Assembly: GCA_013373175.1 (NCBI GenBank)
Contig: JABXII010000014.1
Coordinates: forward strand, 62,001-126,000
Direction: 5' to 3'
DNA: 64,000 nucleotides
Source: Campylobacteraceae bacterium
GTDB lineage: Bacteria > Campylobacterota > Campylobacteria > Campylobacterales > Arcobacteraceae
Position numbers and translations under genes: made by a program. This document shows positions 3,504-28,932 of the stretch, one piece after another. A model generated the notes under the pieces. The model did not search any database. It was not told the DNA's origin and saw nothing but the letters and a program-made list of their open reading frames with translations. Each line of letters starts with the position of its first letter. Positions within the stretch are counted from its first letter, which is position 1.

Positions 3504-4631
3504 TTATTTATTGAATGATACTTTGTAGCTTCCATCATCTTGAATTTGATAAACCATTAAAGACGCTCCAATTCTTTCACCATCTTCTCTAATGTTAAAT
3601 GGTCCAGTAATTCCTGGGAAGTCTTTCATATCATTTCTGATATAAGAAGAGATCTTTTTAGTATCAAATGAATTTGTTTTTTCAACACCTTCCATTACTG
3701 CTCTTAATCCGTCAGCATTAACAACCGCCCAAATTGATGGTGGTTTCATATTAAATCTATCTTCATAAGCTGTTAAATATTTTTTAGCAGCTTCATAAGG
3801 TAAGATATCTGGAGTTGGTACGTTTACTAAATAAACACCTTCTGCAGCTTTTCCTGCAAGTTTTAAGAAATCTGGGTTATCGTTTGAATCACCACCAACG
3901 AAATCAGCTTTAATTCCTAATTGTTTTTGTTGAACTCTTAAAAGTCCACCATCAGTATAGTAACCTGAGTAATAAATTACATCTGGGTTTAATGCTTTGA
4001 TTTTAGTTAATATAGCTGTAAAGTTTTGAGTACCAGATTTAATCTTTCCTCTAAATGCAACATTCCCACCAAGTTTTTTAACTGAATCTTCAACTGAGTT
4101 TGCTAAACCATCTGCATATGAAGAATAATCAGATAAGATTGCAATTCTCTCATATTTCTTTTGATTTACAAAATAATCTGCTGTAAATTCACCTTGTGCT
4201 GAGTTTGGAAATGAGTTTCTAAAAAATGTCCAATATTTTCTTTTGATTAAAGAATCAGAAGTACCATCTGAAGTTTGAAGAATCTTATTTCTATAATAAG
4301 TAGTTTGAGCAGCTTCTGTTGCTCCTGAAGTATAAGAACCAATTACGGCAAAAACACCTGCATTTGCTAATTTCTTAGCACAAACAGCTGCTTTTTGAGC
4401 TTTTGCTTCATCATCACAAGTAACTACCTCTATTTTTTTACCAAGTAGTCCACCCTCTTTATTCTTTTCATCTACAATAAGTCTAACAAAGTTATCAATA
4501 CCTTGCCCCTCATTTGCATACTTTCCTGTAATTGGTGCTTGAACACCGATTTTAACTGTGTCTGCTGCAAATACTGAAGTACAAACAGCTGCACTTAGTG
4601 CTAACGCACTAGCTAATTTAGTTAATTTCAT
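3504..4631 (-). CDS. livK: Branched-chain amino-acid ABC transporter periplasmic binding protein
   Basis: Periplasmic receptor for the LivHMGF importer and first gene of the operon. A signal peptide is visible (MKLTKLASALALSAAVCTSVFA, cleavage after about residue 22). The mature protein starts with the family motif VKIGVQAPITGKYANEGQG. At 375 residues it has the size of LivJ/LivK-type two-lobe proteins. AAAGGGG lies a suitable distance before the ATG. The ligand may be branched-chain amino acids or a related compound; sequence alone does not decide this. Confidence 0.88.
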   Translation of the reverse strand: MKLTKLASALALSAAVCTSVFAADTVKIGVQAPITGKYANEGQGIDNFVRLIVDEKNKEGGLLGKKIEVVTCDDEAKAQKAAVCAKKLANAGVFAVIGSYTSGATEAAQTTYYRNKILQTSDGTSDSLIKRKYWTFFRNSFPNSAQGEFTADYFVNQKKYERIAILSDYSSYADGLANSVEDSVKKLGGNVAFRGKIKSGTQNFTAILTKIKALNPDVIYYSGYYTDGGLLRVQQKQLGIKADFVGGDSNDNPDFLKLAGKAAEGVYLVNVPTPDILPYEAAKKYLTAYEDRFNMKPPSIWAVVNADGLRAVMEGVEKTNSFDTKKISSYIRNDMKDFPGITGPFNIREDGERIGASLMVYQIQDDGSYKVSFNK

Positions 4632-4697
4632 CTAATCCCCTTTCATTAAATTAAATCTTTTTTTCTAGTCCAAAACGTAAAAAAATTCATAATATTT

Positions 4698-4714
4698 TTT
4701 TAGTAGTACTAAAA
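4698..4714. promoter_or_regulatory. Palindromic operator candidate upstream of livK
   Basis: TTTTAGTA-G-TACTAAAA is a perfect 17-nt palindrome with one central base, 67 to 83 nt before the livK start codon. The single-base centre cannot form an RNA hairpin loop, which fits a protein-binding site better than a terminator. The regulator is unknown. Confidence 0.4.
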
Positions 4715-4847
4715 GTAATGATTTTTTATAACTATTCATTATTTCACATTAAATATAAATCGAAACTTAAGATTTTTGCAAATGTAATACAAATCTGATT
4801 GCTTTTTATACAATATGTAACAAAATCTTTGAAATGCTATTTTAATG

Positions 4848-5741
4848 CTACTCTTTGACTTTTTTTTGCTGAATTACTAGTCCTAAAATGATAAATCCAA
4901 GTCCTATTAAAGTTGATATAAAAATCTTTTCATTTAAAATAAAGTATATAAAGATTAAAGACATAAAGGGTGAAATAAAAATCAAATTCGCGATTTTAGA
5001 AGTATTTTCAGCATTCTGCATTGCTTTCAACCAAAATAGAAATGTAATACCCATTTCAAATAGTCCTACATATATAGCTGCCAATATTCCATTTGAACTA
5101 GGGACCATAATAGGCTGTGTTAAAAGGAAGTAAACAATTATAATTGGTGTAGCAATTAAGAAGTTTGAAAACAACATTACTGTTGACTCACCTTTTGTCT
5201 TTGTATTAAATATCCAATATAAAGACCAAAGAATTGTACTAAATAGTGCCAACAATACTCCATCTACATTTGAGAAACTTAAAGAAAATGGCTCTCCTTT
5301 CGTAGAAATAACTAAAACACCAAAGTAACAAATTATTCCTGCAACAATATCATTTAATGTAAGCTTCTGCTTTAAAAAAGGAACAGAAAGAAATGCTAAC
5401 ATTAAAGCCCAAGTGTAATTAATAGCTTGTGCTTCTTGTGCTGGTAAATAATCATATGCTTTAAATAAAACAAGGTAATATAAAAATGGATTTATAAGAC
5501 CTAAGATAAAAACTAGTTTTATATTGTTTTTTATATATGGTATTACTAAACTTAATTTCCTATTTATTACAAGTACAAAGAATAATGCTAATAATGATGT
5601 TAAAGAAGAGAATAAAACTAACTCTTCTGGTGATAGATATTGTAATGAATATTTAAAAGCAGTAGCTACAGTTGACCAAAGAAATACTGCTATTAATGCA
5701 AATTTATATGCTTGTGATTGAGATTTGATTATATTCTCCAT
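4848..5741 (-). CDS. EamA/DMT-family membrane transporter
   Basis: Inner-membrane protein of about 297 residues with ten predicted hydrophobic segments arranged as two EamA halves, the usual size for drug/metabolite transporters. The N-terminal half carries the typical WSTVATAFK and SPEELVLF stretches. The longer reading frame starts at 5786, but the ATG at 5741 (MENIIKSQSQ) gives the normal hydrophilic N-terminus. Genes on both sides are unrelated. Two other EamA genes lie at 19736-21533. The substrate cannot be predicted for this family. Confidence 0.82.
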   Translation of the reverse strand: MENIIKSQSQAYKFALIAVFLWSTVATAFKYSLQYLSPEELVLFSSLTSLLALFFVLVINRKLSLVIPYIKNNIKLVFILGLINPFLYYLVLFKAYDYLPAQEAQAINYTWALMLAFLSVPFLKQKLTLNDIVAGIICYFGVLVISTKGEPFSLSFSNVDGVLLALFSTILWSLYWIFNTKTKGESTVMLFSNFLIATPIIIVYFLLTQPIMVPSSNGILAAIYVGLFEMGITFLFWLKAMQNAENTSKIANLIFISPFMSLIFIYFILNEKIFISTLIGLGFIILGLVIQQKKVKE

Positions 5742-5840
5742 ATTTTTTCCCAATTGTACCACACGTATTGTTATATTTACTTGCACCTTTGTTAAGAAAA
5801 ATATTATTTATTATTTTTAAGTTTAAATATATGAAATTAT

Positions 5841-5846
5841 TATAAT
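5841..5846 (+). promoter_or_regulatory. -10 box of the periplasmic rhodanese gene
   Basis: TATAAT 29 nt before the start codon, preceded by a T/A-rich region without a clear -35 box, as is usual in Campylobacterota. AAGGAG follows at about 5863-5868. Confidence 0.5.
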
Positions 5847-5874
5847 ATTTACTAATAATCTTAAAGGAGTTGAG

Positions 5875-6555
5875 ATGTTAAACAAAATACTAAAACTAGC
5901 AGTTGCCACTTCTTTTTTAAGTCTGTCTTTAATTGCAAGTGAGCTAAATCTTAGAGGAGATGGTGTTGAAGTAAAATTTAATGATAAAACTTACAACATA
6001 AAAAGAATACACGATGAAGAGTGTAGAAATATAAATGGGGCAGATCCTATTAATATTTGGTCAGGAAACTATGCAAAAGAAGGCTTATCTTCAAAATGTG
6101 TTAAAAAGTTTATTACTACAGTAGGGAAAATTACTCCTATGAAAATAACAGAAAAAGTGCAAACAATAGGTGAAATTGAAGTTATAAACTTCATTAAAAA
6201 GTCTCAAAATAGAGATGATATGTTACTTATTGATGCCAGACTTCCTTCTTGGTTTTTACAAATGAGTATTCCAACTGCTGAAAATATTCCTTTTCCATAT
6301 TTTAACAAAGATAAATATCCTGATGATTTCTATGATGTTCTAGATATGATTGGAGTTAAAGAAGTGTCAAAAGGAAAATATGATTTTTCAAAGGCTAAAG
6401 AACTGGTTTTATTTTGTAATGGAGCTTGGTGTCCTCAATCAACACTTGCCATTGAAAACCTTATAAAACTAGGTTATCCACAAGAAAAAATCTCTTGGTA
6501 TAGAGGTGGAATGTACTCTTGGAAAATGTTAAACCTAACAACAACTTCAGAATAG
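5875..6555 (+). CDS. Periplasmic rhodanese-domain protein (sox-linked, copy 1)
   Basis: A 226-residue protein with an N-terminal signal peptide (cleavage near residue 22) and a C-terminal rhodanese domain from about 95 to 220. The active-site loop reads FCNGAWCPQS, with Cys181 as the expected sulfane-sulfur carrier and a second Cys186 five residues later, which is not standard for rhodaneses. The region before the domain has two more cysteines (50 and 75). It resembles the protein at 12264-12911 in layout and in the loop, so the two are paralogues placed at opposite ends of the sulfur region. Transfer of sulfane sulfur in the periplasm is likely; the partner is unknown. Confidence 0.82.
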   Translation: MLNKILKLAVATSFLSLSLIASELNLRGDGVEVKFNDKTYNIKRIHDEECRNINGADPINIWSGNYAKEGLSSKCVKKFITTVGKITPMKITEKVQTIGEIEVINFIKKSQNRDDMLLIDARLPSWFLQMSIPTAENIPFPYFNKDKYPDDFYDVLDMIGVKEVSKGKYDFSKAKELVLFCNGAWCPQSTLAIENLIKLGYPQEKISWYRGGMYSWKMLNLTTTSE

Positions 6556-6580
6556 TAAATCATTAATTTGATTTACTATT
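6551..6580. terminator. Bidirectional terminator between convergent genes
   Basis: A perfect 12-bp stem (6551-6562 with 6569-6580) has a 6-nt TTAATT loop. It overlaps the stop codons of the rhodanese and of the HD-GYP gene, which converge here. No long T run follows on either strand. Confidence 0.6.
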
Positions 6581-7736
6581 TAAAAATCTCTTTAAAATCA
6601 TTTACAATAGTTACATCTACCCTATTTTCTTTTGCCATTTGTTCTAAAATATCAAAAGCTTCGTCTTTAGAATAAGCTTTCCTATAAGGTTTATCATTCA
6701 CTAATGAAGTATATATATTTGTCAAGCTTAGACTTCTATCTTTTAAGCTTAAATCTTTTGCCTCTAAGTTAAAAGGATATCCCTTTGCATCTATTTGTTC
6801 TTGTACTTTATAGGCATAAGAGCAAATATCATTAAAACCTATTATATTTGATAAAATTTTCTTTGTATAATAAGGATAAGCTTTTACTTCTTCGTATTCA
6901 CTCTTAGTTAAAGTATCTTTTTTATTTAATATCTTTTCATCTATATATAGTTTTCCAATATTACACAATGAAGCTGCAATCATGAATGTTTTAGTATCTT
7001 TGTGCTCAAAGTTATAAAACTTAGCAACCTTAGAAGCATTTTCTATAATGTCTAAATTATCATTAGTAAGTAAAGTAAAAATCGAGGTAAGGTCTAAAAC
7101 TTCTTCAAAATCTAAAACTATAGTTTTATCATGAAGTGTAGAGAAAATAAAAGTAAGTAATTCATTTTCATTTTGTAAATCAAGCCAAAAGCTTTGAGTT
7201 TGGGCAAACTCTTCAAAGCATTCAACTAAATCACTTGAAAAAAGTCTATTTTCATTCTCTTTTATATATGTAATTATCTTAATTCTATTTTCTATTGAAT
7301 TTTTACTTAAATCAAATTTTGTATCTATATGATTTGCAAAAAATATAAACTGCGAAAATAAAGGAATATCATAATCTTTTAATTTAAAAGGTCCTTTTCC
7401 ATCAAAACTTTCACACTGGTATTTTAAAACATCTTTTTGTTCTTCAAAATCAAAAGGTAATTTCTTAGTTTGCTCATTTGCATATAAACAACACTTTTTT
7501 TCATCAATCTTCCCTTTAGCTAAACCAATATTGTGTATTAATGAGTATGCACACATATCAAATAAAGCATCTTGCTTATAATTAAACTCCAGTGCAAATT
7601 TTAAACTTATATATGCAACTCTTTTAGAGTGATTTTTACTTGTATTAAAGTATCTTGATTCAACTTCATCAAGTGCATTTGATAATGACAATAAAAAATT
7701 ATTTAAATTGAAATTCATTTGTCTTTTTTTATCCAT
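6576..7736 (-). CDS. Degenerate tandem HD-GYP-domain protein
   Basis: About 386 residues from the chosen ATG, which has AGGA before it; the frame is open further upstream but that part looks like leader translation. Two HD-GYP-like halves are visible. The first has HNIG near 69 and DGKGP near 112; the second has CNIGK near 258, GYP at 319-321 and DKPYRKA near 348. The second HD pair reads CN and the HHE motif is replaced by QEQ, so the metal site of a c-di-GMP phosphodiesterase appears lost. It may act as a sensor or c-di-GMP effector without catalysis. It lies downstream of the hydrolase gene, separated by a hairpin. Confidence 0.72.
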   Translation of the reverse strand: MDKKRQMNFNLNNFLLSLSNALDEVESRYFNTSKNHSKRVAYISLKFALEFNYKQDALFDMCAYSLIHNIGLAKGKIDEKKCCLYANEQTKKLPFDFEEQKDVLKYQCESFDGKGPFKLKDYDIPLFSQFIFFANHIDTKFDLSKNSIENRIKIITYIKENENRLFSSDLVECFEEFAQTQSFWLDLQNENELLTFIFSTLHDKTIVLDFEEVLDLTSIFTLLTNDNLDIIENASKVAKFYNFEHKDTKTFMIAASLCNIGKLYIDEKILNKKDTLTKSEYEEVKAYPYYTKKILSNIIGFNDICSYAYKVQEQIDAKGYPFNLEAKDLSLKDRSLSLTNIYTSLVNDKPYRKAYSKDEAFDILEQMAKENRVDVTIVNDFKEIFK

Positions 7737-7831
7737 AAATATTCCTAGGCTATTGGGGTTAAAGTATAAGTTAAAACTTAAAAAGAATGATATTAAATAA
7801 TATCTTTGAGAAGTATTGAAATATGTTTTAA

Positions 7832-7854
7832 GAAGAGGAGAATTACTCCTCTTC
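7832..7854 (-). terminator. Hairpin overlapping the hydrolase stop codon
   Basis: GAAGAGGAG at 7832-7840 pairs perfectly with CTCCTCTTC at 7846-7854, with a 5-nt loop that contains the stop codon of the alpha/beta hydrolase. Little T follows on the minus strand, so it may be a weak terminator or a 3'-end stabiliser before the HD-GYP gene. Confidence 0.4.
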
Positions 7855-8634
7855 AAACATTTCTACTGTTGCTTCTGTAGCAGTATCAGTCATATCTAAA
7901 TCTAGATGAGCTGCACCCTCTACTTTTACTATTTTTGCATTTAAGCCTTTTTTCTTAGCTATCTCGTAAAAACTTGTAGTAACTTCTGGTTTAGATATTT
8001 TATCTTCTGTTCCATAGATAAATAAAATCTTTGTATCTTTACTGATGTTATCTAATACATCAACCATTGAGATTAAATCTTTATCATCACTTTCTTTATG
8101 GATATCATATCTTCCACCAGCTAAAGCAATATTTTGAATTAAATCAGGTTTTAGACCAATTAGTGTTGCACCCATCATTGCTCCTGCACTATGACCAATA
8201 AAGTTTACATTTTGGGCATTATATTTCTTTTTTAAAGATTCAATTAAAGAACCTAAAAATTCAACATACTCTTTTTTTGCAGCTAAGTTTTTAACTTCTT
8301 TGCTTGCTAATGGTTTTAAGTTGTTTGTAGAAGAATCTGAATATCCAGGAAGTGCAACTGCTATTGTTGTTAAGTCTGTTATCATATTCATAGTTTCAGC
8401 AAAAGGAGCATATCTACCAAGAGTATTTGTTCCTAAATCCCAAGTTCCATGAACAATAACAGTAATAGTTTCACTGTCTTCACCACCATAAGCTTTATAT
8501 TCTATACACTCATTTCCTGCATATATAAAACTTCCATCTTTAGCTTCACATTGCTCTTTTGTAACATTAGCACCATAAACAGCAGTAGATAATACTAATA
8601 ATAAAAAACTCGACGTAAAAAATTTCTTTAACAT
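7843..8634 (-). CDS. Periplasmic alpha/beta-hydrolase
   Basis: 263 residues with a cleavable signal peptide ending near VYGA. The fold is shown by VIVHGTWD (oxyanion region), the nucleophile elbow GHSAGAMMG with the catalytic Ser, the acid in IYGTEDKISKPE and the catalytic His in GAAHLDLD. This is a complete Ser-Asp-His triad in the expected order. Two cysteines follow the signal peptide (EQCEAKDG, NECIEY). It sits 20 nt after the DsrE gene in the same direction at the 3' end of the sulfur region. The substrate is unknown; an esterase or lipase role is possible. Confidence 0.75.
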   Translation of the reverse strand: MLKKFFTSSFLLLVLSTAVYGANVTKEQCEAKDGSFIYAGNECIEYKAYGGEDSETITVIVHGTWDLGTNTLGRYAPFAETMNMITDLTTIAVALPGYSDSSTNNLKPLASKEVKNLAAKKEYVEFLGSLIESLKKKYNAQNVNFIGHSAGAMMGATLIGLKPDLIQNIALAGGRYDIHKESDDKDLISMVDVLDNISKDTKILFIYGTEDKISKPEVTTSFYEIAKKKGLNAKIVKVEGAAHLDLDMTDTATEATVEMFEEE

Positions 8635-8654
8635 GTTAACTCCTTTATTTAAAA

Positions 8655-9095
8655 TTAGTAGGCAATAACTCCAATATAGCCATCAACTTGTCTTTCTATT
8701 AACTCTACAATTCCTGCTTGAACAAAACTTGCATCATCAATAAAATCATCTTCTGTCCAATTCATTGTTTCCATAGTATTTTTACAAACTATAAATTCAA
8801 CATCATACTCAACTAAAGACTTAATTCTTTTAAGAGTTGCTGCATCATAATCTTTCTTTAAAGCTCTTACCCCATTTCCATAAGCAATAACTACTACTTT
8901 TAGTGATTCAGCTGGGTACTCTTTTAAAATGTTATAAATAGTACTAAGATTATGGTTGACTTTAGTTAAATCTGAATCATAAAGTTGAATAGCTACTTTT
9001 CTTGGTTCATCAAATGTTGGATGTGGTTCACTAAATTCTGATTTACCAAATAAAAATAGTGCAGTTGCAAACATTAAAATAAAAATTTTTTTCAT
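8655..9095 (-). CDS. Periplasmic DsrE-family protein
   Basis: 146 residues with an N-terminal signal peptide (about 17 residues). The rest matches the DsrE/DsrF-like fold: KVAIQLYDSD strand, VVVIAYGNGVRAL, and a conserved Cys in EFIVCKNTM at the position where DsrE-type proteins carry sulfur. It is exported, unlike the cytoplasmic DsrEFH complex, and lies in a run with MOSC and cytochrome-thioredoxin genes just after soxB. A role in handling sulfane sulfur in the periplasm is a reasonable inference but not shown. Confidence 0.72.
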   Translation of the reverse strand: MKKIFILMFATALFLFGKSEFSEPHPTFDEPRKVAIQLYDSDLTKVNHNLSTIYNILKEYPAESLKVVVIAYGNGVRALKKDYDAATLKRIKSLVEYDVEFIVCKNTMETMNWTEDDFIDDASFVQAGIVELIERQVDGYIGVIAY

Positions 9096-24049: not shown

Positions 24050-24421
24050 CTATTTAAACTCGCTGAAAAGCTCTAAAGTCTCTTTTGGTATTTTTGCTGG
24101 TTTGTAGTTTTTTAGATATGCAAGTTTTATTTTAGCAGTAAATAAAAGCTCCTCACCTCTAAATATTTCATGGAAAATTTCTAAAGAAGCACTCTTTTGA
24201 GAAACTACCTTTGATGTTACGTCTAACTCGTCTGCAAAAGTTGCTGACTTGATATAGTCTGCTTCAACTTTTTTTACGACAAAGAACTCATCGCCATTGT
24301 GTGGAGATAAACCTCTTTCAAAAAAAATATTACTTCTTGCTCTTTCGCAAAACTTTAAATAGTTTGCATAGTAAACTACACCACCTATGTCTGTGTCTTC
24401 ATAATAGACTCTTATTTTCAC
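24050..24421 (-). CDS. ybgC: YbgC-type acyl-CoA thioesterase
   Basis: 123 residues, a single hot-dog domain. The 4HBT signature YYEDTDIGGVVYYANYLKF is at about 5-23, with the catalytic Asp in EDTD. YbgC proteins hydrolyse short-chain acyl-CoA or acyl-ACP thioesters and often belong to the Tol-Pal operon, but no tol genes are visible here. The start is GTG with GGGAG upstream. The integrase remnant lies 40 nt upstream, so ybgC marks the left edge of the accessory island. Confidence 0.88.
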   Translation of the reverse strand: MKIRVYYEDTDIGGVVYYANYLKFCERARSNIFFERGLSPHNGDEFFVVKKVEADYIKSATFADELDVTSKVVSQKSASLEIFHEIFRGEELLFTAKIKLAYLKNYKPAKIPKETLELFSEFK

Positions 24422-24461
24422 CCTCTAACTCCCTATTTATAACACTTTCTAACCAATAAAA

Positions 24462-24722
24462 TTAAATAATGCCTATAATCGTGCCTATTTTATTTAATTT
24501 TGTAAACCTTGTATCATCATCTTCTTTTATATACTTTGCATAAATTTGTAATGTAATTGATAGGTCTTTATGTCCTAAGATTTTTGATACCCAAAGTATA
24601 TCTATACCATTTTGAATATTTGAAATCATATGACTTGCAAAAGTATGCCTAAGATTATATAAAGTTCTTTCTTTGATACCAGTTTTATTTAATAAAGAGT
24701 TCAAATACCTATTAATTAAACC
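24462..24722 (-). pseudogene. Tyrosine recombinase/integrase, C-terminal remnant
   Basis: The open frame of about 80-86 residues matches only the C-terminal catalytic part of a phage-type integrase. LYNLRHTFASHM holds the RH of box II, ILGHKDLSITLQIYAKY holds the second His and the nucleophilic Tyr. The frame continues a few residues upstream of the first possible start (INRYLNSLLNK) and is cut by TGA near 24723. The N-terminal domain and first catalytic Arg are missing, so the enzyme cannot be active. It is probably a scar of the event that brought in the genes at 24829-28392. Confidence 0.78.
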
Positions 24723-24794
24723 TCAATAAATATAAAAATGATAAAATAACCTACAAAATGCATATTAAAAAGAATAAAATTAGTAAACTACTAT

Positions 24795-24800
24795 TATAAT
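24795..24800 (+). promoter_or_regulatory. -10 box of the ParB-like gene
   Basis: TATAAT 29 nt before the start codon of the island's first rightward gene. AAGGA follows. No clear -35 box. It indicates that the island genes have their own promoter. Confidence 0.5.
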
Positions 24801-24828
24801 TCAGATTAAGAATTAAAAGGATGTTTAA

Positions 24829-25971
24829 ATGGCATATAAATATGAGAAAAAAGATTTTAATAATCTTATTCATGATACATACAATCCAAGATTACCAGAA
24901 TCTCTTCATAATGCAAATGAAGAAGAAGTATATAAATATATGTTACTTGAAGCTGATGTATTATCTTTAGTAGAAGCAATAGGTAAAAATGGTTTTTTTC
25001 CAGGAGAACCAATAATAATTGTAAAAGATGAACCTTCTGATAAATTTAAAGTTGTTGAAGGGAATAGAAGACTATCAGCTGTTAAACTTATAAATAATCC
25101 TAATTTAGCTCCAGTATTAATTGATAGAGTAAAAGAAGCAGTTGAATCAATATCGGATGAAATTAAAAATAACTTAAAAGAAATACCTTGTCTTATTGCC
25201 GATAGTGAAGAAGACATAGAAAAAGTTGATAAGTTTTTAGGTTTTAGACATATCACGGGAACTAAAAATTGGAAATCGCTTGAAAGAGCTAGATATTTAA
25301 ATAAAATGTATTCTAAGGTAAAGAAAGAAAAACCTGATTTTACAGATATAGAGCTTTATAAGGAAGTTGCAAAACTTATAGGAAGTAAAAGTGATTATGT
25401 AAAAAGAATATTAATAGGTTTTGAAATTTATAAAAGAATTGAGGATAAAAAATTTTTCAAAATTAATAATGGAAATTTAAATGATCAAAATTTCCACTTT
25501 GTTAATTTAGCCGACTCTCTAAATAGAAAAAATATCTTTGAATACTTAGGTGTTGATTTTAAAAAAGAAGACCCTATTGAAGACCTAAATTTAGAGAATC
25601 TTGAATTATGGACTAGATGGATTTTTGAAAAAACAAATGGTACAAATACAAGGATTAAAGGCTCTAGTTCTGACTTAGGTAAACTAGATAAAGTATTAGC
25701 TTGTAGTTCTTCAAGAGATGAGTTTATACTAAGAGAAAGAACTTTAGATGAAGCATTAGTGTTTGCTCAAGATAATGACATTTTATTTGATTCATTGATA
25801 AAAAAAGCAATTTCAAATTTAGAAAATGCAGAAAAACCACTCCATTCTATAAAAGAGTTCAACTTTGAGTTAGAGAATAACCTTTCTACTATTTTATCTA
25901 TTTGTAAAAATTTAAATAGAATTAATAATTCAAAAAAACAAGAAGAAGATGATGAGTTTAAACTTTCATAG
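24829..25971 (+). CDS. ParB/Srx-domain protein of the accessory island
   Basis: 380 residues. The N-terminal domain (about 1-130) resembles ParB N-terminal/sulfiredoxin-fold proteins: YNPRLPES, DVLSLVEAIGKNGFFPGEPIIIV, and the ParB box EGNRRLSA at 77-84, where phosphate binding occurs in the family. Helical DNA-binding-like segments follow (ELYKEVAKLIGSKSDYVKRIL). The C-terminal half is unassigned. It overlaps the next gene by 23 nt, so the two are translated together. Pairs of a ParB-like and a PAPS-reductase-like protein are known elsewhere (IbrB/IbrA of E. coli); here the partner lies convergent at 26926-28392. Function unknown. Confidence 0.78.
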   Translation: MAYKYEKKDFNNLIHDTYNPRLPESLHNANEEEVYKYMLLEADVLSLVEAIGKNGFFPGEPIIIVKDEPSDKFKVVEGNRRLSAVKLINNPNLAPVLIDRVKEAVESISDEIKNNLKEIPCLIADSEEDIEKVDKFLGFRHITGTKNWKSLERARYLNKMYSKVKKEKPDFTDIELYKEVAKLIGSKSDYVKRILIGFEIYKRIEDKKFFKINNGNLNDQNFHFVNLADSLNRKNIFEYLGVDFKKEDPIEDLNLENLELWTRWIFEKTNGTNTRIKGSSSDLGKLDKVLACSSSRDEFILRERTLDEALVFAQDNDILFDSLIKKAISNLENAEKPLHSIKEFNFELENNLSTILSICKNLNRINNSKKQEEDDEFKLS

Positions 25972-26935
25972 TAAATTTGAAGAATTTAAAGAAAACATGC
26001 AAGATTATCTTGCAATTACAGCTAGTGGTACAAGTTTAATTTATAATCATAAACTAGATCATATTGAACTTTATTCTTTTATCTACAATATTGAACTTAC
26101 TTCAAGTGATGTTGCTAGAATATTAAATATTCAAGTAGATACTTCATCAGAATTTGGGGAAGAAGAAATTGCAGAAGAAAGAGATGAAGCTGAAGCTGAA
26201 ACTGAGGATTTCTTTACCCTATTAAAAGAAAGAAAAGATCTTTTTGAAGAAGACTATCCTTTTATACTAGAAGAGGAGTATCATTCAATAAAACTTAAAT
26301 CATCATTAACAAACAAGCAAAAGACATATCTTGTTTTACTATGTTCTTCTAATTTAAATAGGTTTAAAGAGTTTCAAAAAGATCTTACTAATGACTTTGA
26401 GAAGGTTTCATATTATTCTTTTCAAAATAAATTCGGAGAAATAGGAATAGTTAAAGAGTTTGGAAATAATGAGAACTATGATGAAAATAAAACAAAAGAA
26501 AAAATTATTGCAATAGCAAATGACTTAAATGTAAAGCCTAGAGAAGACAGAATTGAAAGACATATATCAGAATATTCCACAAAAGATAGAGGCTTAGATT
26601 TAGCAGTATGGTCCCCGTTTAAAGATAAAATTCCTAATATGTTTATATTGCTTGTACAATGTGCAAGTGGAGCAAATTGGAAAACTAAGTTAGCAGAAAA
26701 TAAAAAAATTTGTACATTTTTGGATATCAATAAAACTCTTTTAAACTTTGGTTTTGCTGTACCTTTTGAATTTAGTAACTTTAAAGATGAATTTGAATTT
26801 TTAGATGATATAGAAAGTTCAGATAGTATTATTTTTGATAGAAGTAGAATTCTGGAAAGTATAAAAGAAGAAAATATAGTTGACTCTTTTAATATAATTA
26901 ATAAAATACTAGAATCAGATTTTAGTTATGAATAA
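25949..26935 (+). CDS. Unrecognised island protein with possible nuclease motif
   Basis: 328 residues, acidic in the first third (EEEIAEERDEAEAETED at about 71-87), no signal peptide or membrane helix. I do not recognise the family with certainty. Residues 215-221 read GLDLAVW and 236-247 read VQCASGANWKTK, spaced like the D and (E/Q)xK strands of the PD-(D/E)XK nuclease fold, with Lys245 or Lys247 as possible partner. This is a motif-level inference. It overlaps the ParB-like gene upstream and its 3' end overlaps that of the DndC-like gene by 10 nt, so the three form a compact unit. Confidence 0.72.
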   Translation: MMSLNFHSKFEEFKENMQDYLAITASGTSLIYNHKLDHIELYSFIYNIELTSSDVARILNIQVDTSSEFGEEEIAEERDEAEAETEDFFTLLKERKDLFEEDYPFILEEEYHSIKLKSSLTNKQKTYLVLLCSSNLNRFKEFQKDLTNDFEKVSYYSFQNKFGEIGIVKEFGNNENYDENKTKEKIIAIANDLNVKPREDRIERHISEYSTKDRGLDLAVWSPFKDKIPNMFILLVQCASGANWKTKLAENKKICTFLDINKTLLNFGFAVPFEFSNFKDEFEFLDDIESSDSIIFDRSRILESIKEENIVDSFNIINKILESDFSYE

Positions 26936-28392
26936 TCTAATATATTTTTAAAAACAATGATACTACTAATCTTTTTTCCTTTTTTCCATTCTTTTCTTAT
27001 ATGACCTTCTTCTTTTATTGAAGGAAAAAATTTATTTTCAATTTTTTCAGAATTTACAATTTTTTGAATAGCAAATCTTTTTCTCGTTGAAATAGAGAAA
27101 TACTCTCTTATCTTTTTATTTAACAGTTTTGTGCTATAAAACTCTTTTGCTTCTTTTAATTGTGTTTGTAGTTTTTTATTCAAATTATTAATTCTAAGAT
27201 TAAAACCATACTTTCTAGCTTCTTTAAATGCTTTTAATTCTAAATCACCTTCTAAAACCCATCTTTTTTGAATTAAAATAATTTCTTTTTCTGTAATAAT
27301 TTCTTCATCTAATCGAGATTGAAGTTTTAAAAGTTTTTTTAAAAATTTTTGTCTAATTTTTAGAGTGATACCTTTAGGCATGGTCATACCATATTTAGGA
27401 TTATCCTCTCCACCTTTGTTATAAAGTTCTTGTCCTTGATGTCTATGACTATATGGGTCTCGTGTATATTCCCATCCTCTTTGAGTCTCTTTCCAATATT
27501 CATCTCTATATTGTTTATATAAATCTACATTTTCATAACCACTCTTCATAAGTCCATCTAAGCTTTTATCATTATCTCTTACCATATAGCATTGCCAACA
27601 ACCAAATCTAGAAACACCACAACCTATTTTACCTTCTTCAATATGTTTACCACCAGCACCAACAAAAGTACATTCCTTTGTATCTTTACCACTAGCATCA
27701 CTATATATTTTCCAAAGAAAATCTACATTTAAAAGTTCATTTGTTTGTTTAAATAAATATTCCCAAACATCTTTTGTTGACCAGTCTTCAATAGGCATAA
27801 GATTTGAAGCTTTTTTATATCTATCATTTAGTTTTAAATTTGTACCTTTTACAGTTTTCTTTTCAATTCTTGCATCTCTTGAAAAGCTTTCATCTCTTCT
27901 TGTTCCGATAACAGAAATAAATTCTCCTGTTGGAAAATTACTTGTAATTTCTTTATCAATAGGAAATACTTTTAATTTATCAGTACACCATCTTAATTGA
28001 TTTGAAGGTGGTGGCATACCAACTCCTAAAAGTTGGACATTAAGGCTATTTTTTATTTCAGGAGTAACTTCTTTTACTTCTATATTTAAATTATATTTGT
28101 CTGCATAATTTTGAATAGATTTTAATGAAGATTCTAAGTGTTTTAAAACAGGTGGAAGTTCTGCCAAAGTATTTGAATTTATAATCAATACTTTTTTAGA
28201 TAACTTTTTATTTTCTTTTATTAATTGAATTAACATTTTTATAGTAAGATATACAATAACACTACTATCTTTACCACCACTATATGCCACGCAAAATGGT
28301 CTAGGGTCGGTAAGATAATAATGTTTTAAAATTTCTATTGCATTTTCTTCTTTTTTCTCTATTGTAATGTTCATAATATCTCTTGAATTCAT
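26926..28392 (-). CDS. DndC-like PAPS-reductase-family ATP pyrophosphatase
   Basis: 488 residues, close to DndC length. The PP-loop SGGKDS is at 38-43. Cysteines match a DndC-type iron-sulfur site: Cys136 (RWCTDKLK), Cys258, Cys265 and Cys268 in the stretch CGVSRFGCWQCYMVRDND, followed by KSLDGLMKSGYE. GTRRDESFSRDAR is also typical. In DNA phosphorothioation DndC adenylates the backbone so that sulfur can be inserted, with DndA, D and E. None of these partners is beside it, so the gene is either a solitary relative or part of a different system. Two ATG starts are possible (28392, 28374). Confidence 0.85.
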   Translation of the reverse strand: MNSRDIMNITIEKKEENAIEILKHYYLTDPRPFCVAYSGGKDSSVIVYLTIKMLIQLIKENKKLSKKVLIINSNTLAELPPVLKHLESSLKSIQNYADKYNLNIEVKEVTPEIKNSLNVQLLGVGMPPPSNQLRWCTDKLKVFPIDKEITSNFPTGEFISVIGTRRDESFSRDARIEKKTVKGTNLKLNDRYKKASNLMPIEDWSTKDVWEYLFKQTNELLNVDFLWKIYSDASGKDTKECTFVGAGGKHIEEGKIGCGVSRFGCWQCYMVRDNDKSLDGLMKSGYENVDLYKQYRDEYWKETQRGWEYTRDPYSHRHQGQELYNKGGEDNPKYGMTMPKGITLKIRQKFLKKLLKLQSRLDEEIITEKEIILIQKRWVLEGDLELKAFKEARKYGFNLRINNLNKKLQTQLKEAKEFYSTKLLNKKIREYFSISTRKRFAIQKIVNSEKIENKFFPSIKEEGHIRKEWKKGKKISSIIVFKNILDYS

Positions 28393-28419
28393 TTCGTATT
28401 GTACCTCATTTGTTTTAAA

Positions 28420-28454
28420 AAAAGATATATTTTCGTACGTTTTACATATCTTTT
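28420..28454. promoter_or_regulatory. Nested inverted repeat in a divergent promoter region
   Basis: AAAAGATAT at 28420-28428 and ATATCTTTT at 28446-28454 are perfect inverted repeats. They flank the palindrome CGTACG at 28434-28439, which is centred within half a base of their midpoint. It lies 28 nt upstream of the DndC-like start and about 90 nt upstream of the next rightward gene. A dimeric or tetrameric repressor site, or an insertion edge, is possible. Confidence 0.42.
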
Positions 28455-28542
28455 AAATACTCAAAACTTGACTTTAAAGGCATGTTTAAAATCAAAATAT
28501 GTTAAAATTACTAATTAAACAAATATATTTTCAAGGAGACAT

Positions 28543-28932
28543 GTGTCTATTTTTGCTTTACAATCCTTAGCTGGTGGATTTCTAGATGAGGATTTAGAAC
28601 ATTTTAACAAACATTTTGATGATTGGTGTATTCAATTTGAGACTTATGAAGAGGCTAAAGATATAGCTGAAACTTTAGAAAATGATGAGTCAATAGATAT
28701 AGTTGAAATCACACCTCTTACTTATCCAAAATACTTTTTCAATAACCTACAAGGTATCATCCACGCAACACGACAAATAGAAGATAATATCATCTGTGTT
28801 GTAGAACCTACTATGGGAGCTAGTTTTAGAATAGCAATTTGTAATCTAAAAACAAAAAACGTAAGACTTACAAAAACTCGATATAAAAATATACCAAGCA
28901 TTGAAGCTGCTTTTACTAACTTTTACGACTAG
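28543..28932 (+). CDS. Hypothetical protein
   Basis: 129 residues from a GTG start that has AAGGAG 4-5 nt before it; the nearby ATG is in another frame. No signal peptide or membrane helix. The sequence is acidic at the N-terminus (LDEDLEHFNKHFDDW) and mixed alpha/beta afterwards, with cysteines in WCIQF, IICVVE and IAICNL. I do not recognise a family. It is outside the island's convergent unit and may be core-genome. Confidence 0.68.
   Translation: MSIFALQSLAGGFLDEDLEHFNKHFDDWCIQFETYEEAKDIAETLENDESIDIVEITPLTYPKYFFNNLQGIIHATRQIEDNIICVVEPTMGASFRIAICNLKTKNVRLTKTRYKNIPSIEAAFTNFYD

Follow-up and report, generated by a model that had tools for sequence, protein, structure and literature searches.

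Within a 64,000-nt stretch of the genome of a Campylobacteraceae bacterium (contig JABXII010000014.1, positions 62,001 to 126,000), three genes, here termed A, B and C, form a compact module that encodes a ParB-like protein, a probable nuclease and a convergently transcribed DndC-like protein of the PAPS-reductase family. We refer to the full stretch as the window and to its genome (2.76 Mb, 38 contigs, completeness 99.98%) as G000. We propose, at a probability of roughly 0.55, that the three genes make up a horizontally acquired, restriction-modification-like cassette directed against invaders, in which C, a lone DndC-family protein (solo DndC), would mark self and A would gate the nuclease B. 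This is the simplest reading because homologs of A and B elsewhere are paired with DNA methylases or with DndCD(E), and here the DndC-like C occupies that slot.

Genes A and B are a widespread pair with exchangeable partners

Homologs of A and B were compiled in a viral and a genome set. A viral scan with the single B sequence gave no match and an alignment-based scan was required; alignment scans returned 98 loci, from which 16 second copies of contigs were removed to leave 82 contigs. As many of these contigs are closely related prophages, the viral counts do not represent independent events. The genome set holds the 80 loci most like A (the best 80 of 458 candidates), with L004 (the window copy) and L005 (replaced by the longer L221) left out of the count. 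A and B were labelled by iterated profiles, whereas the methylase and Dnd labels come from seeds that were checked on examples only.

The two genes are adjacent in 80 of the 82 viral contigs, the profiles finding no pair on the other two (L057 and L102), and in 77 of the 80 genome loci, where they lie apart once (L163) and form no pair by profiles twice (L166 and L173). Of the 80 viral pairs, 62 have a C5-cytosine methylase nearby and 14 a D12 adenine methylase, while 4 have neither. Among the 76 with a methylase, 66 have that gene in convergent orientation within 60 bp, as C is in the window. Within 5.5 kb of A and B at the genome loci, DndD is found in 45 of 80 cases (42 with DndC, 3 without DndC seen), a cytosine methylase in 15 of 80, and neither methylase nor Dnd gene in 17 of 80; these together make up the 77 loci with adjacent A and B. 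The Dnd-associated loci include L105 (DndC, 420.3 bits; DndD, 278 bits), L164 (DndD, 631 bits; DndE, 102 bits) and L170, an Arcobacteraceae metagenome-assembled genome in which A and B are convergent with a DndE-sized gene, a DndD-like gene and DndC (DndC, 351.5 bits; DndD, 80.8 bits, below the cut-off; the small gene not recognised as DndE). B is rare in Campylobacterota, occurring in 4 of 387 genomes, one of them as a fragment, and at L221, from the same bacterial order, a D12 methylase takes the place of C. In the window, the labels pick out a single candidate partner within 5.5 kb of the pair, the DndC-like gene. A Type II restriction-modification assignment was rejected, as no methylase is labelled within that distance and C belongs to the PAPS_reduct family.

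A and B usually have a DNA methylase or DndCD(E) as neighbor, so the trio represents one form of a wider modular family. The first-pass annotation had envisaged three genes conserved together; the trio does recur in one more species (L274, below), but the widely conserved unit is A and B only, and C is an exchangeable module that has other partners too.

Some of these loci carry further genes. A and B follow a very large gene (~1600-1760 aa) in L123, L138, L139, L141, L155, L157, L158 and L161, and several loci with such a gene upstream of A have Dnd genes downstream. Between DndD and A, L105 (4410-5999) and similar loci carry a ~520-530-aa gene; its N-terminal 108 residues match DndE (5.5e-10), and its long C-terminal part gives weak ATPase-like matches. 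Viral loci L019 and L043 combine A, B and an adjacent cytosine methylase with a further DndC-like open reading frame (ORF) 3.6-3.9 kb downstream by profile. At L114 (1469-5477), judged by eye, a PP-loop fragment (SGGKDS) is convergent to A and B at the contig end, and the upstream genes include ASCH-like and HNH-like ones.

The three genes occupy an insertion at a hotspot

A sister species carries an empty version of the site: at L309 (G781, of the same genus), 57 bp separate the thioesterase gene from the 129-aa gene, where the window has ~4.06 kb (blastn; Table 1). The insert has a G+C content of 25.6%, lower than the 28.4% and 27.9% of its flanks. L308 and L310 hold other cargo beside the same 129-aa gene, which makes the site a hotspot: a 333-aa gene in L308, and 637-aa and 819-aa genes in L310 (G391, 4173-9045). 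The latter locus also has a homolog of the window's integrase remnant at 6309-6449; by eye, the start of its 637-aa gene is hydrolase-like and that of its 819-aa gene resembles a TIR or SEFIR domain.

A second species of the genus (L274, G778) has A, B and C in the same order and with the same overlap with C, close to its copy of the 129-aa gene, and the amino acid identities to the window are 88%, 86% and 79%, respectively. This recurrence, together with low dN/dS values between the two (A, 0.094; B, 0.127; C, 0.178), indicates that the trio is more than a chance grouping; genes A, B and C are intact, real and under constraint. The architecture is as first annotated, with a ParB-box protein containing EGNRRLSA that overlaps the next gene by 23 nt, a convergent DndC-like gene with a PP-loop and a four-cysteine site that overlaps B by 10 nt at its 3' end, and an integrase remnant on the left.

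Solo-DndC cassettes in L273 and L274 lie, at about 13-19 kb, close to filamentous-phage-like genes. L274 has a Zot-family gene (Pfam) of filamentous-phage type a few kb past the cassette, and L273 has a full-length integrase immediately upstream of C. Filamentous-phage-like prophages may carry or neighbor defence cargo.

Table 1. Features of the A-B-C locus, in window coordinates
Feature	Position	Strand	Basis
Inserted segment (~4.06 kb), thioesterase gene to 129-aa gene	24421..28482		blastn vs empty site L309 (G781); G+C
Integrase remnant, tyrosine recombinase C-terminal part	24462..24704	-	Pfam Phage_integrase 2.2e-9, model positions 116-167/172; phrog_1 4.5e-17
Gene A, 380 aa, predicted ParB-fold NTPase-like, helical C-terminal part	24829..25971	+	phrog_3694, Foldseek, VIA
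A motif EGNRRLSA, residues 77-84	25057..25080	+	sequence; 60-row alignment
Gene B, 328 aa, winged-helix-like N-terminal part + probable PD-(D/E)XK nuclease	25949..26935	+	phrog_3984, 74-row alignment, model, VIA
Gene C, 488 aa, solo DndC-like sulfurtransferase-family protein	26926..28392	-	TIGR03183 220.7 bits; clade with 10 intact members
C PP-loop SGGKDS, residues 38-43	28264..28281	-	invariant in 7 solo sequences; aligned in 7/7 canonical DndC
C cysteines 241, 258, 265, 268	27589..27672	-	kept in 10/10 solo + 7/7 canonical DndC
C cysteine C136	27985-27987	-	among DndC cysteines
129-aa gene, hotspot edge marker, outside cassette	28543..28932	+	DNA match in 16/16 genomes of genus

Protein C belongs to a distinct clade of solo DndC proteins

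Protein C matches Pfam PAPS_reduct at 1e-12. Among 387 Campylobacterota genomes, 53 match C, yet scores of at least 650 bits were obtained only for the window's own genome and six others; the next intact match reaches 215 bits, while a broken member occurs in G204. Solo members from G776, G777 and G778 came from a family search that covered 104 genomes. Ten intact solo members resulted (L220, a broken solo DndC, was left out), and on a phylogenetic tree they split from three canonical DndC proteins, including that of L170, with support of 100/100. The SGGKDS motif and five cysteines (136, 241, 258, 265 and 268) align in 7/7 solo and 7/7 canonical DndC sequences, while cysteines 34, 136, 241, 258, 265 and 268 are kept in all ten intact solo members. 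The clade was not seen in 349 sampled Pseudomonadota (22 matches of any kind, best 193 bits) or in 247 sampled Bacteroidota (14 matches of any kind, best 186 bits); a viral scan with solo DndC returned just five distant relatives (best identity 35%), and all matches to C in plasmid and phage collections fall below 60% identity. Judged from these sequence comparisons, C represents a distinct clade, seen only in the sampled Campylobacterota, in which the PP-loop and the five DndC cysteines are retained.

After residue 383, C ends in a tail with a net charge of +16. Tails of nine of the ten solo members range from +12 to +17, whereas those of the three canonical DndC proteins carry +4, -6 and -9, raising the possibility that the basic tail stands in for DndD/DndE in nucleic-acid binding. 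Separately, residues 22-379 of C match (1.2e-49) the PADLOC model PDLC03333, which carries a Type II methyltransferase label and, given this match, may derive from a DndC-like protein filed as a methylase.

Solo DndC adjoins four types of defence-type module

All ten intact solo DndC genes have a defence-type module no more than 77 bp away, which is Menshen in four cases, RADAR-like in three, the A and B pair in two and GmrSD-like in one. The pair is the partner in the window and L274 (overlap of 10 in each). Menshen adjoins C in L214 (overlap of 33) and in L216, L217 and L218 (gaps of 9, 51 and 25). PADLOC models recognise NsnA in L214 (8e-122), L216 (3.5e-118) and L217 (8.7e-117), NsnB in L214 (2.8e-95) and L217 (1.1e-99), and NsnC in L214 (2.1e-41), L216 (7.7e-155), L217 (1.7e-155) and L218 (8e-147); NsnB of L216 and both NsnA and NsnB of L218 were assigned by place and likeness rather than by scan. 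The RADAR-like partners are found in L215 and L219 (overlaps of 11 and 8) and L275 (gap of 77), and are so labelled because of partial-model matches to RdrA (3.6e-21, 4.8e-25 and 7.7e-33, respectively) and RdrB (6.4e-26, 3.9e-24 and 1.2e-22), and because L219 and L275 also match the Pfam adenosine-deaminase family. The GmrSD-like module (GmrSD_N, 1.1e-31) overlaps C by 14 in L273.

These associations mean that C is not tied to A and B. Partners have also been exchanged: the C proteins of L214 and L215, although 82% identical, sit beside different kinds of module, and a single supported group of five (99/99) holds every one of the four module types. Partner types nevertheless still cluster on the tree, with 5 changes compared to a shuffled mean of 8.0.

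The Dnd partners had been reported as missing from the locus. For DndD this holds more widely: its model, TIGR03185, finds nothing in G000 at E 0.001 and exceeds its curated cut-off in 0/10 solo genomes, with weak partial matches in 4/10 (best 28.9 bits), although a divergent DndD such as that of L170 also scores below the cut-off. The DndE model TIGR03184 likewise matches in 0/10 solo genomes, but it was silent in the control genomes too and misses the small gene of L170; DndA-type desulfurases were not searched for.

Proteins A and B resemble a ParB-type NTPase and a restriction-type nuclease

Protein A matches phrog_3694 over its full length (2.4e-75), and residues E77, G78, N79, R81 and L82 of its motif are invariant across 60 alignment rows. 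Its predicted structure (pLDDT 91.1) matches ParB in Foldseek (2e-5) and, in VIA, aligns with 7bnr over 95 residues (Z 10.6, root-mean-square deviation (rmsd) 2.3) and with KorB over 201 residues (Z 10.3, rmsd 4.9). On this structural evidence A has a ParB CTPase fold and is predicted to bind nucleotide.

Protein B matches phrog_3984 (2e-29) and no Pfam or PADLOC family, and a GldB assignment (NCBIfam, 0.0042) was rejected at 16.4 bits vs a cut-off of 190. Residues E151, D217, Q237 and K247 are invariant in a 74-row alignment, and the model (pLDDT 89.6) shows a helix-strand order resembling the restriction-endonuclease core. By title, the top VIA rows are mostly such nucleases (MspJI, Can2, Card1, SdaI, Nt.BspD6I, Bse634I, SgrAI and FokI), the best alignment covering 126 residues at Z 7.6 and rmsd 4.0, and the N-terminal part aligns to winged-helix regulators (Z ~5). 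The first three Foldseek rows are also restriction enzymes, none below E 0.08. No solved structure was recovered with profiles of B or C. In keeping with the annotation of the middle gene as a putative nuclease, B is probably a PD-(D/E)XK nuclease; the call stays at probable because the Foldseek result is not significant.

Comparison with known systems

The closest likeness is the gp98-gp96-mth segment of the P2-like phage Wphi, first found by tblastn with B, which has homologs of A and B arranged in the same order and a convergent modification gene touching B; that gene is a C5-cytosine methylase (9.9e-62), where the window has a DndC-like enzyme. The pair is common in P2-like prophages even though phrog_3694 and phrog_3984 are both labelled unknown function. 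Loci with DndCD(E) and homologous A and B (L105, L164, L170 and others) also place a DndC-family enzyme near the pair, but they carry DndD and mostly DndE, neither of which neighbors the pair in the window, and the two of their DndC proteins that were scanned (L105 and L170) exceed the TIGR03183 cut-off, unlike C. The Menshen, RADAR-like and GmrSD-like modules of relatives share the adjoining solo DndC clade with the window and differ in their effector genes, none of which is in the window.

For published systems we drew on PMC9519451, PMC10853773, PMC12704722, PMC11662687, PMC12839542, PMC10952713 and PMC13251355; in the literature searched, supplements not covered, we found no description of the A and B pair or of the solo DndC clade. 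SspABCD-SspE and IscS-DndBCDE-DndI, as described, resemble the arrangement proposed here: a ParB/DUF262-fold NTPase senses the sulfur mark and exerts control over a nuclease. SspE and DndI unite the sensor and an HNH nuclease in one protein and work with a multi-subunit writer, whereas in the window the sensor and the PD-(D/E)XK-like nuclease would be two proteins and the putative writer one. Type 4 BREX (PMC12839542) has a PAPS-reductase-family protein in a methylase's place; it is larger, has another gene set, and its BrxP model matches C at just 4.1e-14. PD-Lambda-5, termed in the literature a compacted prophage version of restriction-modification plus abortive infection, has a ParB-like N-terminal domain, and PADLOC PD-Lambda-5_A matches the N-terminal part of A (3.2e-25, best model 5-162/466). 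As this covers only the first third of the model, and B has no PADLOC match, membership of A in PD-Lambda-5 was rejected. IbrB/IbrA, the ParB-like plus PAPS-reductase-like pair named in the first-pass annotation, is a putative further parallel, on which a literature search turned up nothing relevant.

A proposed mechanism and its alternatives

In the cassette as we propose it, C, a lone DndC-family sulfurtransferase, would mark host nucleic acid, most likely DNA, by phosphorothioation or a related sulfur change, with sulfur supplied by a housekeeping cysteine desulfurase. A, acting as a ParB-fold NTPase and DNA clamp, would read DNA and its mark, and would either release B on unmarked DNA or restrain it on marked DNA. 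There is published precedent in SspE and DndI, in which phosphorothioate sensing and control of a nuclease fall to a ParB/DUF262-fold protein. Besides this precedent and the slot that C occupies, the proposal draws on the DndC active-site residues kept in C, the invariant residues and restriction-like core of B, the ParB fold of A, the low dN/dS values and the basic tail of C. The first-pass proposal of a three-gene defence or modification system on this chemistry survives as a compact module built on a DndC/PAPS-reductase-family enzyme, and needs correcting in that C has no fixed tie to A and B; defence and DNA or nucleotide modification remain the functions we infer.

Several observations weigh against this proposal. 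The A-B-C trio is known from two species in one genus, perhaps through a single acquisition. C scores 220.7 bits against the DndC model TIGR03183 (residues 20-398), below the curated cut-off of 290.4, as do the other two solo members scanned (L274, 213.4; L216, 214.7), and according to a Dnd review (PMC10853773), Dnd modification is held to be nonfunctional without a DndD-type ATPase and DndE. The charge of the C tail is shared by another window ORF, also +16 over its last 105 residues (44 ORFs compared). For B, 0/129 Foldseek matches reach E <=0.001 (best 0.08, BstEII) and VIA Z stays below 8. Many of the 17 genome loci with neither methylase nor Dnd gene within 5.5 kb end at contig edges, but L144, L152, L171 and L181 show no partner despite at least 4 kb on both sides, so the pair can stand without a visible one. 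Finally, three of the ten solo DndC genes adjoin RADAR-like modules, and published RADAR logic is not that of DNA restriction; C may therefore act on another target, which calls for caution.

In the best-placed alternative, C would act not on DNA but transfer sulfur to tRNA, a nucleotide or a protein, serving several unrelated toxic effectors as their antidote or as a sensor of infection, along toxin-antitoxin-like lines. We regard this as unlikely, although one clade beside four module types, always within 77 bp, would suit it, as would RADAR-like partners that fit no DNA mark and the lack of above-threshold DndD in all ten genomes, because A and B elsewhere adjoin dedicated DNA-modifying enzymes and the basic tail of C is in keeping with nucleic-acid binding. 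Moreover, seven of the ten solo partners include a protein of the ParB/DUF262 superfamily (A, NsnA or the GmrSD-like protein, with NsnA of L218 placed by likeness only), a superfamily that has published DNA-mark readers.

A decayed Dnd island, from which DndD and DndE were lost, leaving C behind and A and B to persist alone, seems improbable: the integrase is indeed a remnant, and L170 provides an Arcobacteraceae example with a DndE-sized gene and DndD-like and DndC genes beside A and B, but C is not of the Dnd-linked type, given the fully supported split of the solo members from canonical DndC and TIGR03183 scores of 213-221 bits in three of them vs 351 for L170, and it is constrained, with a B/C overlap that recurs in L274. 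Equally doubtful is a cassette in which A and B are the sole working system and C an unrelated neighbor collected by the hotspot, for while the pair has many partners, sometimes none seen, and L308 and L310 have other cargo at the same edge, the genes C and B overlap in two species and the clade of C lies within 77 bp of a defence-type module in every intact case.

More tentatively than the proposed cassette, solo DndC may be a portable, single-protein licensing module that places a sulfur mark on nucleic acid, or on a nucleotide, without DndD or DndE. Unrelated effectors (ParB-nuclease, Menshen, RADAR-like and GmrSD-like) would each be wired to that mark, which in the window would take over the part of DNA methylation in a cassette of phage type. 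With its DndC active-site residues retained, no DndD and four module types as neighbors, the conserved solo clade offers a small, direct test of DndC acting alone. If this reading is true, methyl, Dnd and solo-DndC marks would be interchangeable inputs to one ParB-nuclease pair. The place of C, where relatives carry a DNA methylase or the full Dnd machinery, suggests that a single protein may mark self alone, a task thought to require partners.

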